DNA from: Bacilli bacterium
Lineage (GTDB): Bacteria; Bacillota_I; Bacilli_A; RFN20; CAG-826
Assembly: GCA_017651565.1 (NCBI GenBank)
Contig: JAGCCQ010000060.1
Coordinates: 1 to 55,221, forward strand
Length of the DNA stretch: 55,221 nt
Direction: 5' to 3'
Below are positions 14,276-28,199 of this stretch, one piece after another (the first letter of the stretch is position 1; each line of letters begins with the position of its first letter). Below the pieces are notes generated by a model. It had not been told where the DNA came from, searched no databases, and saw only the letters and a list, made by a program, of their open reading frames with translations. The translations under genes were made by a program, and so were the position numbers.

Positions 14276-15214
14276 TTATTTTCTTTTTGATGATTTTTTA
14301 TAAAGAACAATATTGAGAATTAGTCCTACAATTATTGATCCTAAAGTATACATAAACGAGAAGAATTCTGTTGTCTCATAGTTAAACATTGTGAGTGATA
14401 AAGAGAATTCACTTTTAATAGACTCTAAGAACTCTGGTCCACCATTTGAGCCCATTGCATTTGCGACGTGTTCAGTAACTCCACCCATCAATAACTCTCT
14501 ATAGATACTTGCGACTTGTGATCCAGGGAAGAATGCTAATGTAGTTTGTACTCCAGTAGAGAAACTTCCTAATGGAACGTAAGCTCCAATAATAAATCCA
14601 ATTGCAGCACTTACGATTCCACCAAATGCACCTAATGCTCCTGTTTTCTTAAAGAATGAAGCAATAATCATCATCAATAATGTTGCGGAAGCACATCCTA
14701 AGATAGTATTCAAATAAAGAAGAATGACTTTAGTTACTGTTAAATATAAAGAACCAATAATAGATAAACTAATTAATCCAACAGTTAATACTCCGCAAGT
14801 AATAAGCAATGTATTAACTAATGCACCAGTGAAGTAAGATAGAACAACGATATGTCCGTTACTAGGAGAAGAATTGTAGTCATAATCTACTTTTCTATCT
14901 TTATCATCTACCATAACAGATAATGAGTTTAATGAAACAGTAATACAAGATGATGCTAAGATACCTGATAAAAGCCATCCATTTGCGATGTTTTCTACGT
15001 CATTCATATCTATAAGATGACTTACAGAAGCTAGGTCTCCTTTAATTGATGACATATAAGCTTCCTTTAGGAAAAGAATATAAAGTAAGAACACAATTAA
15101 AGGAGCTAAGATTGAGAAAAATACAGTCATCTTATCTTTAAAGAATACTTTAATATTTCTACATGTCATTCCTTTATAAGCATTGAATTTTTGCGATAAA
15201 GTTAAACCGTCCAT
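14276..15214 (-). CDS. ABC-2 type transporter permease
   Basis: Membrane half of an exporter that pairs with the ATPase just upstream. With the start at 15214 (MDGLTLSQKF) it has 312 residues; GTG at 15223, closer to the AAGGAG site inside the end of the ATPase gene, is an alternative. Six hydrophobic segments follow the ABC-2 plan: one after a basic cytoplasmic N-terminus (MTVFFSILAPLIVFLLYIL), a large outer loop, then five close together, with GALGAFGGIVSAAIGFIIGA near 215-234. Family members export lipids, drugs or antimicrobial peptides; the substrate here is unknown. Confidence 0.87.
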   Translation of the reverse strand: MDGLTLSQKFNAYKGMTCRNIKVFFKDKMTVFFSILAPLIVFLLYILFLKEAYMSSIKGDLASVSHLIDMNDVENIANGWLLSGILASSCITVSLNSLSVMVDDKDRKVDYDYNSSPSNGHIVVLSYFTGALVNTLLITCGVLTVGLISLSIIGSLYLTVTKVILLYLNTILGCASATLLMMIIASFFKKTGALGAFGGIVSAAIGFIIGAYVPLGSFSTGVQTTLAFFPGSQVASIYRELLMGGVTEHVANAMGSNGGPEFLESIKSEFSLSLTMFNYETTEFFSFMYTLGSIIVGLILNIVLYKKSSKRK

Positions 15215-15215
15215 A

Positions 15216-16130
15216 CTATTCACATAACTCCTTTCCAGTGACGTTAATAAATACGTCATCCATATTTCCCTTTATAAGTTCATAATCCACTAATAAATTT
15301 CTTTCATTACTTAAAAAATCAATGATCTCATTATTCGTCTTATAAGCGATTTTATATGTGTCCACGACATATTCATGTTTAAGATGATATTTGTTAAGCA
15401 GCGCGTCGTTTTCCTTACTTTTTGGGGTATGCCATAGCATCTTGTTGGTTGAGTGTTTGCTTTTTAAGTTGTTAGGGGTGTCGTGTGCCACTATTTTGCC
15501 ATGATCTATAATAACTACTTCATCTGCGTCTTCTGTTTCTTCCATGTAATGGGTTGTTAAGAAAACAGTAAGACCAATTCTCTTTCTTAGGTCATTAATG
15601 ATGTTCCACACTAACTTTCTAGTTTTTGGGTCTAGTCCAGTAGTTGGTTCATCTAAGAAAAGAACTTTAGGAGAGTTGATAAGCGCTCTAGCGATATCCA
15701 CTCTTCTTCTTTGCCCTCCAGAAAGTTGGTTATACTTTCTATCCATAATTTCGTTTAGATTTAATAACTCGCTTAATTCTTTAATTCTTTCAAGAGACTT
15801 TTTCTTATTTAAGCCGTAGTAAGCACATCTAGAAATAAGGTTTTCTTTAACAGATAAAACACCATCTAATACTGAATTTTGAAACACAATACCAATAGAG
15901 TTTCTAATGTTGCCTGGGTTCTTATCTAAGTCATATCCATCAATAACAATAGACCCACCATTCTTTTGTAATATTGTGCATAAAACATTAATCGTGGTTG
16001 ACTTACCTGCACCATTTTCTCCTAAGAATGCAAATAAACTACCTTCCTTAACAGAGAAGGAAATGTCATCAACCGCTAATACGTCTTTATAGCTCTTAAT
16101 TAAGTGACTAACTTGAATAATATCTTTCAT
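15216..16130 (-). CDS. ABC transporter ATP-binding protein, DrrA/CcmA-like
   Basis: ATPase of the exporter. In 304 residues: Walker A GENGAGKST (about 37-45), Q-loop GIVFQNSVLDG, signature LSGGQRRRVDIARAL (about 137-151), Walker B VLFLDEPTTGLDP (about 156-168), H-loop TTHYMEETED, and the C-terminal regulatory extension common in DrrA-type subunits. It ends at the start of its permease, with overlap of the ribosome site and stop, so the two subunits are made together. Upstream is a terminator, so this begins the transcript. Confidence 0.95.
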   Translation of the reverse strand: MKDIIQVSHLIKSYKDVLAVDDISFSVKEGSLFAFLGENGAGKSTTINVLCTILQKNGGSIVIDGYDLDKNPGNIRNSIGIVFQNSVLDGVLSVKENLISRCAYYGLNKKKSLERIKELSELLNLNEIMDRKYNQLSGGQRRRVDIARALINSPKVLFLDEPTTGLDPKTRKLVWNIINDLRKRIGLTVFLTTHYMEETEDADEVVIIDHGKIVAHDTPNNLKSKHSTNKMLWHTPKSKENDALLNKYHLKHEYVVDTYKIAYKTNNEIIDFLSNERNLLVDYELIKGNMDDVFINVTGKELCE

Positions 16131-16175
16131 ACCTTCACCTCGACGCTAAAAGTATAAAAAATTTATAAAAATAAA

Positions 16176-16227
16176 AAACGCAACTACGTGTAGCATGCAT
16201 TTTTTGCTAAGTAAGTTGCGTTTTTAG
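16176..16227. terminator. Terminator of the zinc-ribbon cluster
   Basis: Long inverted repeat AAAAACGCAACT / AGTTGCGTTTTT around a 26-base loop. On the minus strand it follows the stop of the last zinc-ribbon gene and ends in a T-run; it separates that cluster from the ABC exporter genes. Confidence 0.85.
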
Positions 16228-16241
16228 ATATGTATTATTCC

Positions 16242-16838
16242 TTAATATTTATTGTCGTCAATATAAATACCAATTGGTCTACTCCTATCTTGAAAGTTGG
16301 CGAATATCTTCGTTCCATTAGGCAAAACACCATATAAATTTTGTTGACGTGTGTGACTGCGTCTAGAATTAAATAGAGCTTGACTATTAACTATTTCATC
16401 TTCTACAACTAAAGCGTTTTGGCTTCTTTTTCTAAATAGAACAACGGTGTAACCCTCGATTTCTTTAACAATAAGTTTTCTTCTCAAAACTATAATCACA
16501 GTATAAATAGCAAAGCTAACATACATGATTATCGGAAACCAAAATAAATGATCAGAACTATCTAAATAAGAATTACCAATTGCGATAATAGGAAGAAGAA
16601 TAAATGGCAAAGCCAATAAGAGTATAATTAAAAGGTCAGCTACCTTGCTTAATATTGCTTTTTTTCTCCATTTTCCTACCCACGACGAATCTCTTGGAGT
16701 TGGAGTTAATTCCTCTTTTTCTTCCTCGAACATTTTGTTGATATCATTAATTCCTTCAGTAGGAGAACCACAATTTGGGCAAAACTTCTCGTCTGCATTT
16801 ATTTGCTGCCCACAATATGGGCACTTGATTTTTTCCAT
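16242..16838 (-). CDS. Zinc-ribbon/two-TM paralogue 1
   Basis: Member of a six-gene tandem family of unknown function. The 198 residues have an N-terminal zinc ribbon (CPYCG at 6-10, CPNCG at 20-24), a linker with acidic run EEEKEELTP, the family motif SSWVGKWRKK just before the membrane, two hydrophobic segments (about 68-92 and 98-118), and the conserved C-terminal domain (GYTVVLFRKRSQNALVVEDE, VLPNGTKIF, IGIYIDD). With two membrane passes both ends should be cytoplasmic. It lies 28 bases after paralogue 2 without its own promoter element and ends the cluster at a strong terminator. Confidence 0.8.
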   Translation of the reverse strand: MEKIKCPYCGQQINADEKFCPNCGSPTEGINDINKMFEEEKEELTPTPRDSSWVGKWRKKAILSKVADLLIILLLALPFILLPIIAIGNSYLDSSDHLFWFPIIMYVSFAIYTVIIVLRRKLIVKEIEGYTVVLFRKRSQNALVVEDEIVNSQALFNSRRSHTRQQNLYGVLPNGTKIFANFQDRSRPIGIYIDDNKY

Positions 16839-16866: not shown

Positions 16867-17499
16867 TTACATTTCTTTTTTCTTAAGAACTCTATCTTTT
16901 CCTACATGAATCTTAATTCCTGGGCGGAATTCAACCCAGATGTTTTTACCATTAGGAAGAGTTCCTTTTAAAGTTCTAAGATCAGAATAAAATCTATTAC
17001 TAACATATTTTTGTTCATCTAAAACTACATCATCACATACTAAAAAGTTAAAATTCCCGTATTGTGCGACAAGAATATTAAAACCATCAACTTTTGCTTG
17101 GTAAAATTTCTTTCTAGTAATTTCAAAAATAAGCACTAAGCCAATAACAGCAAAAACTATTGAAAAAATGATGCATAAACTTATTTGTGCTTTTACAAAG
17201 TCTCTCCCAAGATAGTTCCCGTCTCCATGTATGGAAGCAATAGTTGTAACTATCATAACGATTATAATTACTGAAAAAATTATGCCAGTGCCAATAGCAA
17301 GTTCAGTGTTGTGTGGAATTTGTTTATTTTTCCATTTTAAAATCCACTCATCACTTTTATTTCCTCGAATTGTAGGATCAAAATAATCCCCTGATTTAGG
17401 CTGTTCATTTTTTTCTTTTAAAACACGCCCACAGTAAGGACATTCCTCATGCTCATCTACGAGAAGAGCACCACAGTAAGGACATACAAAATCTTCCAT
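16867..17499 (-). CDS. Zinc-ribbon/two-TM paralogue 2
   Basis: The start is set at 17499 (MEDFVCPYCG), 8 bases after GGGGG, in line with the other members; 210 residues. Zinc ribbon CPYCG/CPYCG, linker with DYFDPTIRGN, motif DEWILKWKNKQI, two hydrophobic segments (about 69-92, 106-129) and the C-terminal domain VDGFNILVAQYGNFNFLVCD, DEQKYVSN, LKGTLPNGKNIWVEF. A promoter with the shared upstream element precedes it, and paralogue 1 follows in the same transcript. The basic C-terminus (VLKKKEM) differs from the others. Confidence 0.8.
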   Translation of the reverse strand: MEDFVCPYCGALLVDEHEECPYCGRVLKEKNEQPKSGDYFDPTIRGNKSDEWILKWKNKQIPHNTELAIGTGIIFSVIIIVMIVTTIASIHGDGNYLGRDFVKAQISLCIIFSIVFAVIGLVLIFEITRKKFYQAKVDGFNILVAQYGNFNFLVCDDVVLDEQKYVSNRFYSDLRTLKGTLPNGKNIWVEFRPGIKIHVGKDRVLKKKEM

Positions 17500-17541
17500 A
17501 ATAAACACCCCCTATATTCATGATTATATTAAATGATTTTT

Positions 17542-17588
17542 ATTATATAAAAATATGCTCCTGATGCGGAATCGTGGCAACAACTTTT
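17542..17588 (-). repeat. Shared promoter element, copy A
   Basis: Conserved block at 17556-17588, written on the plus strand as CCTGATGCGGAATCGTGGCA followed by ACAACTTTT. On the minus strand it lies just upstream of a TATAAT box (17542-17547) that would drive paralogues 2 and 1. Within it TGATGCGGAA and a TGATGGCAAC-like half are 10 bp apart. Confidence 0.75.
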
Positions 17589-17603
17589 ATATAGTTTAAT
17601 TTT

Positions 17604-18194
17604 TTAATGATTCTTGTCTTTTAATTCTAATATCCTAATTTCTGGATAAAACTCAGCTAAAACTTTTTCTCCATTTGGAAGAGAACCTTGCAAAGCATAA
17701 CTACGGTTACGACCTCTAATAGTTAAATACTTTTGTTCATCCAATACTTTATTATTACAAACTAAAAAGTGGTGACGTCCATATTTTGCAGCCAAAATTG
17801 TGAAACCATCTATTATTTTCACTGCAAATTTCTTTTTTGTTTCTTCTCTCCAAACAATAGCGATACCACCAACGGTAAAGAGACCTATAAGAATAACACC
17901 AATTATTTCTAATGCACTATCAACGCCATCAAAAAGAATGCTTAAAGAAACACCAGCAAAAAAAGCTACAAAATATATAATGTAGATAGCTGAAATTAAA
18001 TAATTTTCTCTAAGTTGCTTTGATTTCCATTGCTCAACCCAATCGTCACATGGCATTTCGTCAATGTTAGATTTAAAAGCTTCTTGTGACACTAACTGTT
18101 TATTGTCTTCTTTTAAAGACTCACCACAATATGGACAAACAGTATAATCGTAGAAGAATTCAGCGCCACAATATGGACATTTATTCTTTTCCAT
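17604..18194 (-). CDS. Zinc-ribbon/two-TM paralogue 3
   Basis: Of 196 residues, the first ~65 are almost identical to paralogue 4 (MEKNKCPYCGAEFFYDYTVC, then PYCGESLKEDNKQLVSQ), including the motif CDDWVEQWKSKQL. The two membrane segments (about 67-90, 94-113) differ completely from paralogue 4, and the C-terminal domain (IDGFTILAAKYGRHHFLVCN, LDEQKYLT, LQGSLPNGEKVLAEFYPEI) is again close. GGGGG lies 8 bases before the ATG. The pattern suggests recent duplication with later conversion of the ends. Confidence 0.8.
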   Translation of the reverse strand: MEKNKCPYCGAEFFYDYTVCPYCGESLKEDNKQLVSQEAFKSNIDEMPCDDWVEQWKSKQLRENYLISAIYIIYFVAFFAGVSLSILFDGVDSALEIIGVILIGLFTVGGIAIVWREETKKKFAVKIIDGFTILAAKYGRHHFLVCNNKVLDEQKYLTIRGRNRSYALQGSLPNGEKVLAEFYPEIRILELKDKNH

Positions 18195-18236
18195 AACTAA
18201 TACCCCCTATTTCCAACATTATATTAATAATTTTTT

Positions 18237-18280
18237 ATTATACAATAATGACCCTGATGCGGAATGATGGCAACAACTTT
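18237..18280 (-). repeat. Shared promoter element, copy B
   Basis: Block at 18249-18280 (plus strand TGACCCTGATGCGGAATGAT then GGCAACAACTTT), identical to copy C over its core. A TATAAT box on the minus strand (18237-18242) follows 6 bases later and would drive paralogue 3. No good -35 hexamer is present, as expected for an activator-dependent promoter. Confidence 0.75.
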
Positions 18281-18302
18281 CATATGATTTATTTTCAAAA
18301 TC

Positions 18303-18884
18303 TTAGCCTTTTATTTCAAGTATTCTAATTTCTGGATAAAACTCAGCTAAAAGTAATTGACCATTTGGAAGACGGCCTTGCAAAGAATGCATATCGCTAC
18401 CGCCTCTATGTGTAAAATACTTTTGATCATCTAATACTTTATTATCACAAACTAAAAAGTTATGATGACCATATTTGGCGGCTAAAACTGTGAAACCATC
18501 TATTTTTCTTACCGCAAATCTCTTTTTTGTGAGTTCTCGTACAACAAAGAAGCTACAAGCCAAACAAGTAATACCTATTATAAGGTCGCTTACTATTTCA
18601 AGTGTATAACCACCATCAATAGAATGGATGGAAAATACCCCAACGGCAAAAATAGATGTCAAAAGCGCAACCAATATAAACGAGAAGAAATAATTCTCTC
18701 CAAGCTGTTTTGATTTCCATTGCTCAACCCAACCGTCACATGGCATTTCGTCAATGTTAGATTTAAAAGTTTCTTGTGACACTAACTGTTTATTGTCTTC
18801 TTTTAAAGACTCACCACAATATGGACAAACAGTATAATCGTAGAAGAATTCAGCGCCACAATATGGACATTTAATTTTCTCCAT
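18303..18884 (-). CDS. Zinc-ribbon/two-TM paralogue 4
   Basis: The 193 residues carry a zinc ribbon (CPYCG at 6-10 and 20-24), motif CDGWVEQWKSKQL, two hydrophobic segments (about 66-89, 95-115) and the C-terminal domain IDGFTVLAAKYGHHNFLVCD, LDDQKYFTHRG, LQGRLPNGQLLLAEFYPEI. Its first ~65 codons match paralogue 3 nearly base for base. GGGGGG lies 8 bases before the ATG and the shared element with TATAAA lies upstream. Function unknown; likely membrane-bound and cytoplasm-facing. Confidence 0.8.
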   Translation of the reverse strand: MEKIKCPYCGAEFFYDYTVCPYCGESLKEDNKQLVSQETFKSNIDEMPCDGWVEQWKSKQLGENYFFSFILVALLTSIFAVGVFSIHSIDGGYTLEIVSDLIIGITCLACSFFVVRELTKKRFAVRKIDGFTVLAAKYGHHNFLVCDNKVLDDQKYFTHRGGSDMHSLQGRLPNGQLLLAEFYPEIRILEIKG

Positions 18885-18929
18885 AACTAATACCCCCCTA
18901 TTTCCAAGATTATGTTAATAATTTTTTAT

Positions 18930-18973
18930 TTTATAAAAAATGACCCTGATGCGGAATGATGGCAACAACTTTT
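18930..18973 (-). repeat. Shared promoter element, copy C
   Basis: Block at 18941-18973 with the same core as copy B. A TATAAA box on the minus strand (18930-18935) is 5-6 bases downstream and would drive paralogue 4. The distance from the element to the -10 box is nearly constant in the three copies. Confidence 0.75.
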
Positions 18974-18994: not shown

Positions 18995-19576
18995 CTATTT
19001 TGTATTGTTTTCTTCTTCTACAATGCGAATAGATATTGAATCAAATTCAACTCTAATCTTAGTTCTATCTGGTAGTTCACCAATAAGAGGCTCATCTTTC
19101 ACGCCATCATCTGAATAGACTCTATCTTTTTCTAGGGCGAGCAATTTATCGTCACAGACTAAAAAGACATTTCCTCCAGATATATAAACCAAAACTGTAT
19201 ACCCATGAATTTCTTTAACTAAACTTCTTTTTTTCAAATATCTTATTACGATTTTTGGTATTGCTGCAGAAAGAAGAAAAAGATATAAAGTCATAAATAA
19301 TAACTCGAAAAATATCAACCCTTCATAAGTATTTCTAGCGAATGTATCTATAATTCCCCAAACGCAAAAAGCAATCGATCCTAGATAAACTAAAATAGCT
19401 AAAGAGACTACCACGTAACTACTCCATAATCTTTTATGTTTCCATTTTTCTACCCAGTCACTACTGATTGGTTTGCTATTGTAACTATCTTTTTCAACAT
19501 TAATTTTTGCGCCACAAAAAGAACAAGTATCTTCTATAGATTCATTAATTTCATTGCCGCATCTTGGACATTTCAT
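18995..19576 (-). CDS. Zinc-ribbon/two-TM paralogue 5
   Basis: The 193 residues are a diverged member: zinc ribbon MKCPRCGNEINES...CSFCG, a shorter linker, motif SSDWVEKWKHKRL, two hydrophobic segments (about 53-77, 84-106) and C-terminal domain IHGYTVLVYISGGNVFLVCD, LIGELPDRTKIRVEF. It follows paralogue 6 by 19 bases, so the two share a transcript. The ribosome site AGGTGAAG is some 10 bases from the ATG. No copy of the shared promoter element is found in front of it. Confidence 0.8.
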   Translation of the reverse strand: MKCPRCGNEINESIEDTCSFCGAKINVEKDSYNSKPISSDWVEKWKHKRLWSSYVVVSLAILVYLGSIAFCVWGIIDTFARNTYEGLIFFELLFMTLYLFLLSAAIPKIVIRYLKKRSLVKEIHGYTVLVYISGGNVFLVCDDKLLALEKDRVYSDDGVKDEPLIGELPDRTKIRVEFDSISIRIVEEENNTK

Positions 19577-19595: not shown

Positions 19596-20225
19596 TTAGT
19601 CATTAGAAACTTGGTTCATTAAAACAAACTTTTTACCATCATAATGAGCTAATACTTTTTTATTATTTGGTAGTCTACCTAATAAGTCTTTACTATCTTT
19701 TAAACTTTTTGCAGACACCTCATCAATTTCAGGAGTGTCTAAATTAAGAAATAAACACACTGTTGAAGGATCTAGTATAGTATCTTTATTAACTACAGGA
19801 AGTAAACCCATAAACTTTTTAGCAACTACTTTATCTTCAATAACCAAATAACCGAATAGTCCTTGATACACTAAAACGTTATATTCATCATAAACCCTAA
19901 TACTAACTTGATATCTAAGTACAGACATTATGAAAATATATAAAGCAATTAATGATAAGAAGAACAAAACTCCAGTAAGCGATTTAATTGTGGAAGTAAA
20001 ATAAGTTTTAACTAAAACAACAGATAAAACATTTAAACCAACAAAAATCACAATAGAAAGAATTCTTACTAATAGTAATTTCGTTTTCCATGAATCCGTC
20101 CAATTTGGATTAACACTAGTATTTATTACATTAGAATTCTTAACTGATTGAGACCCACAATATGGACAAGTTGTTAAATCATCCCTAATATCAATATTAC
20201 AATTTGGACATTTAATTCTAGCCAT
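19596..20225 (-). CDS. Zinc-ribbon/two-TM paralogue 6
   Basis: First gene of the cluster in transcription order. The 209 residues have the zinc ribbon CPNCN/CPYCG, motif PNWTDSWKTKLL, two hydrophobic segments (about 51-74, 78-98) and the C-terminal domain YDEYNVLVYQGLFGYLVIED with an insertion of about 20 residues before LLGRLPNNKKVLAHYDG. GGGGG is 6 bases before the ATG. The gap to the DUF3021 gene holds that gene's terminator and a weak promoter, but no clear copy of the shared element. Confidence 0.8.
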   Translation of the reverse strand: MARIKCPNCNIDIRDDLTTCPYCGSQSVKNSNVINTSVNPNWTDSWKTKLLLVRILSIVIFVGLNVLSVVLVKTYFTSTIKSLTGVLFFLSLIALYIFIMSVLRYQVSIRVYDEYNVLVYQGLFGYLVIEDKVVAKKFMGLLPVVNKDTILDPSTVCLFLNLDTPEIDEVSAKSLKDSKDLLGRLPNNKKVLAHYDGKKFVLMNQVSND

Positions 20226-20335: not shown

Positions 20336-20806
20336 TTATTCTTTTGCGTCTTCCTTAGTTTTAACGTTATGTAACGCTTTATTAATACTATCTGAATGTT
20401 TCTTATCAATCATTGTAGTGATAATCCATACACCTACATAGATAATAATAAATATAATCGCTACAGTAATCATTCCAGAAGGTTCTCTCCACCACTTAAA
20501 TAAAAATCCTTCTCCAAAAACAATAACTAGTAATAATACTAAGTGAATAACACATCTAACGATAAACTCATTCTTAGTTAATTCATGTTTAGACATAAAC
20601 ACTAATGTACATAATGATGTAGGTATAGATATTCCAAATACTTGGAAAGGGAATGCCCAATCAAACGACTGCGCTATATCTCCATTAGCTAGATATGATA
20701 TAAAACCTAACATACCTAATAAAAACAAAAGGAGAACAGTAATTAATTGAAACTGAGTAATAACATCTTTAAATGCTTCTTTTATAAATTCTTTATTTTT
20801 ATTCAT
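20336..20806 (-). CDS. DUF3021 family four-TM protein
   Basis: The 156 residues have four hydrophobic segments (about 20-38, 49-68, 82-102, 110-133) and the short charged ends typical of DUF3021. Such proteins are nearly always encoded next to a LytTR regulator and are thought to restrain or tune it from the membrane. It follows the LytTR gene by 23 bases with AAGGAG before its ATG and ends in a terminator. The pairing with LytTR supports the assignment more than any single motif. Confidence 0.8.
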   Translation of the reverse strand: MNKNKEFIKEAFKDVITQFQLITVLLLFLLGMLGFISYLANGDIAQSFDWAFPFQVFGISIPTSLCTLVFMSKHELTKNEFIVRCVIHLVLLLVIVFGEGFLFKWWREPSGMITVAIIFIIIYVGVWIITTMIDKKHSDSINKALHNVKTKEDAKE

Positions 20807-20829: not shown

Positions 20830-21282
20830 TTATATACCTAATATCTTCTTTAAATTAGGAACATACTGACGCGAAATGATGATTCGCTCATCATTTATTA
20901 GCCTTGCTTCAAAACGCCCGTTAAACGCTGGAGAAACGTAATTAATCTTAGAGGCATGGAGTATCATTGACTTGCTACATCTAAAGAAAGAAGTACCTGC
21001 GAGTATTTCTTCTATTTCATAGAGTTTTAATTTGGATTCGAAGAAATCATCTGCACAATAAATAAAAGTCTTATTCTCTGTAGCTTCGATATAGAGAATA
21101 TCTTTTAGCTTAATTGTGTAGATTTGTTCATCTTTAGTGCCTACTAATGAAGTTGGTTTAGCTTCACTAGCTTGAAGTTTCTTCATAAGTTCTAAAACTT
21201 CAGGAGTAATTTCGTGACACTTGATGACTACCTCTTCAGTGTCATCTTTATCTATAGTTTCCACTCTTACCTTAATCATTCT
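20830..21282 (-). CDS. LytTR-domain DNA-binding regulator
   Basis: The start at 21282 (MIKVRVETIDKDD) is chosen because GGAG lies 6 bases before it; 150 residues. After a short N-terminal region comes a complete LytTR domain: IYTIKLKDILYIEATENKTF (about 57-76), KLKLYEIEEILAGTSFFRCS, KSMILHASKINYVSPAFNGRF and LINDERIIISRQYVPNLKKI. There is no receiver domain, as in other LytTR-DUF3021 pairs. These regulators act on nearby genes by binding direct repeats, which makes the zinc-ribbon promoters likely targets. Confidence 0.9.
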   Translation of the reverse strand, partial: RMIKVRVETIDKDDTEEVVIKCHEITPEVLELMKKLQASEAKPTSLVGTKDEQIYTIKLKDILYIEATENKTFIYCADDFFESKLKLYEIEEILAGTSFFRCSKSMILHASKINYVSPAFNGRFEARLINDERIIISRQYVPNLKKILGI

Positions 21283-21382
21283 TTTCTCCATGACCACTAT
21301 AAAACATTTAAAGTTTTATTCAAAATCAAAATTAGTAAGTTGCAAAAATGAGTATGTAAGATACAGATTTTTGCTTGTTTTA

Positions 21383-27424: not shown

Positions 27425-27847
27425 TCAGTTACAAAGTGGTCTTTGAAGTAATTTTAATATTAAATCTGGTTCCTTATCAATAAGACGAATCATATTATCA
27501 AAAATTCTATCTTGAATTGCACCATTTTCATATCTTGCTATAGTTTTTTTTCCACAGCCAATTCTTTCAGCTAATTGAGTTTGAGTAAGATGATTTCTTT
27601 TCCTTATCGCAATTATTTCTTCCGTTGTTAATAAACCGACTTTTCTTTTGTATGAATCCAATCTTCTAATATCATTTTTTCTTCCAACTCGGACTGGATA
27701 AACAGGCCCGCCACAGTTCTTGCAGCGACAGCATATAAAGGAATACTTAACATCAACACCACGAATTTTACTCGACACTTCTACTTCGAAAGTATCATAA
27801 TCAACATCTTTATAACATTGTTCACAAAAAGGTAATAATTTCTTCAT
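27425..27847 (-). CDS. MqsA-type antitoxin with zinc finger and HTH
   Basis: Starting at 27847 (MKKLLPFCEQCYK), 8 bases after GGAGG, it has 140 residues. The N-terminal half has two CxxC pairs (CEQC, CKNC, plus CCRC) that bind zinc, and the second half is an XRE-like HTH: LTTEEIIAIRKRNHLTQTQL, AERIGCGKKTIARYENGA. This is the MqsA/YgiT plan: the zinc domain neutralises the toxin and the HTH represses the operon. It follows the toxin gene with overlapping or near-overlapping ends, the usual toxin-first order of this family. Confidence 0.88.
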   Translation of the reverse strand: MKKLLPFCEQCYKDVDYDTFEVEVSSKIRGVDVKYSFICCRCKNCGGPVYPVRVGRKNDIRRLDSYKRKVGLLTTEEIIAIRKRNHLTQTQLAERIGCGKKTIARYENGAIQDRIFDNMIRLIDKEPDLILKLLQRPLCN

Positions 27848-27861
27848 TTTACATTCCTCCA

Positions 27862-28199
27862 TTAGTGTATCTTATATATCAACAGCCTGGTTTTATGATT
27901 AAGAACTTTTAATTTAATGTATACTTTTACTTTCAAACCTTTCACATATTTTAAAAAATCCAGCAAAGATGCTTAAATCTTTCGTTATTATAATCATCAA
28001 CAGGTCCTTTGATTAAATCTTTTTCGGTTAGCGTTTTGACTATATCTTTCACATCTCGCTCGTATAGTCCATATTTATCCATAAATTCCAAACTTTCTAT
28101 TGCATAAAACGGATATTTATAGATTTCCATTTTCTCATAACTTATTTTTCCTATTATTTTTATTACTTCTTTTATTGTTAAATTTTCTTTTTCCTCCAT
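27862..28199 (-). pseudogene. MqsR-type toxin, frameshifted
   Basis: The open frame from ATG at 28199 gives 82 residues (MEEKENLTIKEVIKIIGKIS, then LYERDVKDIVKTLTEKDLIK and GPVDDYNNERFKHLCWIF) that match the first two thirds of Firmicutes MqsR-family mRNA interferases. It stops at a run of six T. In the next frame the sequence continues LKYVKGLKVKVYIKLKVLNH and ends KTRLLIYKIH at a TAA (27862-27864) that overlaps the antitoxin region. One missing T (or a -1 slip) restores a 112-residue protein of family length, with the typical YIKLK strand. So the toxin is probably inactive, slip-expressed or affected by a sequencing error. Confidence 0.82.

Follow-up and report, generated by a model that had tools for sequence, protein, structure and literature searches.

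A conserved 33-bp element upstream of zinc-ribbon membrane protein genes is a probable transcription factor site distinct from the predicted LytTR boxes of the locus

Analysis of a 55,221-nucleotide stretch of DNA from a Bacilli bacterium (contig JAGCCQ010000060.1; the window) revealed a 33-bp element upstream of three genes for zinc-ribbon membrane proteins. In the reading that we favor, and consider reasonably probable, this segment of about 33 bp is a transcription factor site located just upstream of the -35 box of three individually promoted genes. Judged from sequence, the site is lineage-specific and most likely an activator site. A regulator would bind the element upstream of each -35 box and, acting probably as an activator given the position of the element, would switch the three genes together; this regulator is probably a protein other than the LytTR regulator encoded nearby. 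The locus would thus combine two control circuits: a LytTR system, whose predicted targets are its own operon and an ABC transporter, and a separate regulator of the zinc-ribbon genes.

Sequence and distribution of the element

Read on the gene (minus) strand, the core of the element is AAAGTTGTTGC-N5-TTCnGCRTCAGR-N2-CAT, in which two conserved blocks are 5 bp apart. In plus-strand coordinates, the sequence TGATGCGGAATGATGGCAAC is found exactly at 18255-18274 and 18947-18966 and with two mismatches at 17562-17581, against 0.01 chance matches expected within the window, which bears out the three copies claimed in an earlier note on this DNA. No further copy with up to three mismatches was found in the 1.58-Mb genome (74% complete), and the genome scan proposed in that note thus yielded no copy away from the zinc-ribbon promoters. 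The locus and its predicted sites are listed in Table 1.

Table 1. Genes and predicted regulatory features of the locus (positions in the window)
Feature	Positions	Strand	Remarks
ABC-2 type permease	14276..15259	-	
ABC transporter ATPase	15216..16130	-	likely LytTR target
Predicted LytTR box 2	16190..16219	-	ABC operon promoter; GCAACTTAC-12-GCATGCTAC, then 10 bp, GTTTTT-17-TATACT
Zinc-ribbon paralogue	16242..16838	-	no element; 28 bp after upstream gene
Zinc-ribbon membrane protein	16867..17499	-	with element
Proximal -10, TATAAT (predicted)	17523..17528	-	possible -35 TTTATA at 17546-17551
Element copy 1	17555..17587	-	AAAGTTGTTGCCACGATTCCGCATCAGGAGCAT; 5' of gene starting 17499
Zinc-ribbon membrane protein	17604..18194	-	with element
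Proximal -10, TATAAT (predicted)	18218..18223	-	possible -35 TTGTAT at 18240-18245
Element copy 2	18248..18280	-	AAAGTTGTTGCCATCATTCCGCATCAGGGTCAT; 5' of gene starting 18194
Zinc-ribbon membrane protein	18303..18884	-	with element; structure modelled
Proximal -10, CATAAT (predicted)	18909..18914	-	possible -35 TTTATA at 18932-18937
Element copy 3	18940..18972	-	identical in sequence to copy 2; 5' of gene starting 18884
Zinc-ribbon paralogue	18995..19576	-	no element; 19 bp after upstream gene
Zinc-ribbon paralogue	19596..20225	-	no element; own promoter region of ~100 bp
DUF3021 membrane protein	20336..20806	-	putative LytTR inhibitor; PF11457 above cut-off
LytTR regulator	20830..21297	-	PF04397 above cut-off; true start probably ATG at 21279
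Predicted LytTR box 1	21335..21364	-	lytTR promoter; GTATCTTAC-12-GCAACTTAC, then 10 bp, TTTGAA-17-TATAGT

Two further copies are present in a sister genome of the same genus, G001 (MAG RUI143 'Bacilli bacterium', JAILIF01), where both precede zinc-ribbon genes in the corresponding locus. In both species, the distance from the element to the zinc-ribbon start codon is 85-90 bp, which holds for all five copies. The pattern of the element was absent, at up to one mismatch, from the other 277 of 279 genomes of the order; at three mismatches, five extra matches were obtained at the family level, which equals the chance expectation. The earlier note described two TGATG half-sites spaced by 10 bp; this pair is a feature of the two recent duplicates and is lacking in the other three copies: the second TGATG, found only in the two youngest copies, falls in the non-conserved 5-bp spacer. 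An inverted repeat, TGTTGC-N9-GCATCA, was likewise rejected, compensating changes being absent in the most divergent copy.

We know of no operator that matches the element sequence. Other resemblances were attributed to chance: a match in an ABC gene of Ruminococcus bromii is in coding sequence and has 6-7 mismatches, and six matches in viral contigs are all in open frames, five of them being the same sequence. A coding reading of the element itself (SCCHxSASG), which shares its frame with the upstream stop in four of five copies, was discarded, as it lacks a start codon and two of these four copies carry additional in-frame stops.

Promoter geometry

The earlier note placed a -10 box 6-8 bases from the element and took the element to replace the -35 region. 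A TATAAT-like run does exist at this distance, but one of the five copies has only a poor version of it. All five share another -10, which matches at 5/6 positions or better, at A1+55 to A1+59 and 23-25 nt before the start codon. This proximal -10 is about 19 bp further downstream and better conserved, and four of the five copies have a weak -35 (TTTATA or TTGTAT) 16-17 bp upstream of it; all these core promoter boxes are predicted, and the DNA is very AT-rich. If the proximal -10 is the one used, the element does not replace the -35 region; about 2-3 bp separate its end from the predicted -35 downstream. A comparable proximal -10 is also seen in the promoter of a sixth gene (start 20225), which has no element. 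The two genes that closely trail an upstream member (starts 19576 and 16838; gaps of 19-28 bp) lack the element, as had been observed.

Activators usually bind just upstream of the -35 box. The position of the element therefore suggests that its regulator is probably an activator, while sequence cannot tell activation from repression at this site. As in Class I/II activator sites upstream of a weak -35, we find a fixed distance to the promoter, a weak -35, and a conserved asymmetric site. The activator-site reading of the earlier note is thus supported as probable as far as the type of site is concerned, given the fixed distance to the start codon, the location just upstream of the -35, the sharp upstream boundary, the conservation across species, and the restriction to these promoters; the proposal of LytTR as the binding protein is not supported.

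The LytTR system and its predicted targets

A LytTR protein together with a DUF3021 or DUF2154 membrane protein is the defining pair of the LytTR Regulatory System (LRS), in which the binding boxes are direct repeats in a 9-12-9 layout located 10 bp upstream of the -35, with weak sequence conservation between systems (PMC6193735). In the window, the LytTR and DUF3021 genes are adjacent, and predicted autoregulatory repeats are located 10 bp upstream of the -35 at the lytTR promoter. Among the upstream regions collected from 80 related lytTR loci, 42 score 17 or more for the half-site TGC(A/C)(A/T)CTTA(A/C) at period 21, compared with at most 14 at any other period of 14-29 tried, a count that is partly circular because the consensus was first read by eye from the same regions.

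A LytTR motif was then built from 26 lytTR-DUF3021 loci, which included neither the window nor G001, and the window was searched with it. The top two matches in the 55 kb are box 1 (27.8 bits) and box 2 (16.2 bits), and the next best is the opposite-strand reading of box 2 (12.5 bits). A degenerate pattern of the box matches at these two positions only in the whole genome. The same arrangement (box, 10 bp, -35, 17 bp, TATAGT/TATACT) is observed at both window promoters and at two matching G001 promoters. These predicted sites make its own operon and the flanking ABC transporter the most likely targets of LytTR.

Several details of these promoters and their relatives were noted. The box of the ABC operon overlaps a strong hairpin that has a T run behind it (16174-16225; fold z-score -6.1). 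This structure apparently terminates transcription of the zinc-ribbon genes, and so the terminator and the predicted activator site would share DNA. The predicted -10 of lytTR, TATAGT (21296-21301), overlaps the GTG at 21297, which makes the ATG, preceded by GGAG, the probable real start. The sister genome contains a chimeric ORF (L049:6685-6936). Its first part is the beginning of a second copy of the ABC ATPase gene, which has a LytTR-box-like promoter of its own, and this is joined to a piece of a glutathione-peroxidase-like gene. Elsewhere in the genome from which the window comes (contig C43; L168:2810-5253), another LytTR-DUF3021 pair is encoded together with ABC genes; a two-species alignment of its upstream region suggests ACCRCTTAG-12-ACCGAATAG as the likely box, and this predicted box is unlike the element, which led us to reject the second system as a binder.

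Against the LytTR motif, the better strand of the zinc-ribbon elements reaches -4.7 to -0.7 bits, compared with a median of -4.2 and a 95th percentile of 3.8 bits for random 56-mers. A LytTR box inside the element was thus rejected on the basis of the family motif scan. Inspection of every copy revealed no pair of 9-bp direct repeats separated by 11-13 bp, that is, no direct repeat at 21-22 bp; the pair motif at periods of 20-23 bp was at background level in the elements, and no half-sites like those of the cognate lytTR operon promoter were found. Hence the binding by the neighboring LytTR protein that the earlier note suggested finds no support in these comparisons. Since the protein has its own motif at the lytTR and ABC promoters and the elements are at background, the zinc-ribbon element appears to belong to something else.

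It is unlikely, in our judgment, that the neighboring LytTR nevertheless binds the element in a non-canonical manner and activates the zinc-ribbon genes. In its favor, no DNA-binding regulator other than LytTR was seen in the locus in either species, the repeats of published LRS are weakly conserved between systems, and the position of the element upstream of a promoter resembles that of LRS boxes, such as those of Streptococcus mutans (HdrRM, SMU_1070c/1069c) and Listeria monocytogenes (lmo0984-0987) (PMC6193735). The locus itself has an LRS, made up of LytTR, DUF3021 and a linked ABC transporter. Unlike those boxes, the element has no 9-12-9 direct repeat, no CTTA-type half-site, and no 10-bp offset, whereas the predicted box of this LytTR is found in the published layout at two other promoters.

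Conservation of the element and alternative origins

An action of the element in RNA, be it within a long leader or, where transcription reads through, as an intercistronic processing site or small-RNA target, is possible but weaker than the reading as a transcription factor site, and we regard it as rather improbable. In this genome the element starts only 16-22 nt past the upstream stop codon, a gap in which a terminator would hardly fit, and any transcript that reads through would therefore include the element. Against this reading, folding of the element gave no excess signal, a search of Rfam returned no family, and the gene that precedes the element in the sister species, at a distance of 70 nt, encodes an unrelated peroxidase.

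The repeats arose partly via tandem duplication of a gene with its promoter: two copies of the element sit inside a duplication with a 690-bp period and about 80% identity. The element could accordingly be a functionless by-product of this process, which we consider very unlikely. Copy 1 and the first G001 copy are identical at 31 of 33 positions, whereas the fourfold-degenerate sites of four genes shared by the same two species are 58% identical (P about 5e-6), which indicates that the element is under selection and is more than a duplication remnant. The element is also retained before divergent proteins: with the first of those encoded behind the elements as the reference, the others show 66, 38, 17 and 25% identity, and the genes of the two species fall into separate, divergent clades. 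Its retention in the sister species suggests that it probably binds a regulator.

Invariant columns among the five copies number 6 of 53 upstream of the element, where the copies are nearly unrelated in sequence, 22 of 33 inside it, and 27 of 54 in the downstream promoter and leader; gene conversion between copies could inflate the within-genome part of this conservation. The densities inside and downstream of the element do not differ significantly (P 0.10), and the whole region is thus conserved as one unit. As this unit starts sharply at the element, the element most plausibly marks the upstream limit of a regulated promoter.

Zinc-ribbon proteins and candidate regulators

The modelled zinc-ribbon protein has an N-terminal zinc ribbon, two membrane helices and a C-terminal beta domain (pLDDT 70.8); a Foldseek search against the PDB gave no match with E below 0.001. 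A crude pattern scan for such proteins near LytTR-DUF3021 pairs was positive at 9 of 80 loci, some of them clearly spurious, and revealed no regular link.

We give little credence to a circuit that acts via the element and lets the zinc-ribbon membrane proteins regulate their own promoters, either themselves or through a factor that they retain at the membrane; if true, it would be a second membrane-linked circuit nested in the LRS-ABC locus. Least probable is an antisense or divergent plus-strand promoter within the element, C(G/T)GAA(T/A)-17 bp-TATA(G/C)T-like, whose 17-bp spacing and TATA-like hexamers are constant in all five aligned copies: its -35 match is weak, its spacer is itself among the most conserved parts, and AT-rich flanks make TATA hexamers cheap; like the RNA-level reading, it is possible but weaker than a transcription factor site.

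Among proteins encoded in the window, an MqsA-family antitoxin-like protein combines a zinc ribbon with an HTH domain (27425-27862); it was rejected as the regulator because no relative was found in the sister genome (86% complete). A regulator separate from LytTR would mark a lineage-specific family of zinc-ribbon membrane proteins, and the five-copy alignment provides a ready probe for finding it. In the sister genome, one zinc-ribbon gene (L049:5915-6535) is split by a frameshift, reflecting either decay or an assembly error, and its element is intact.
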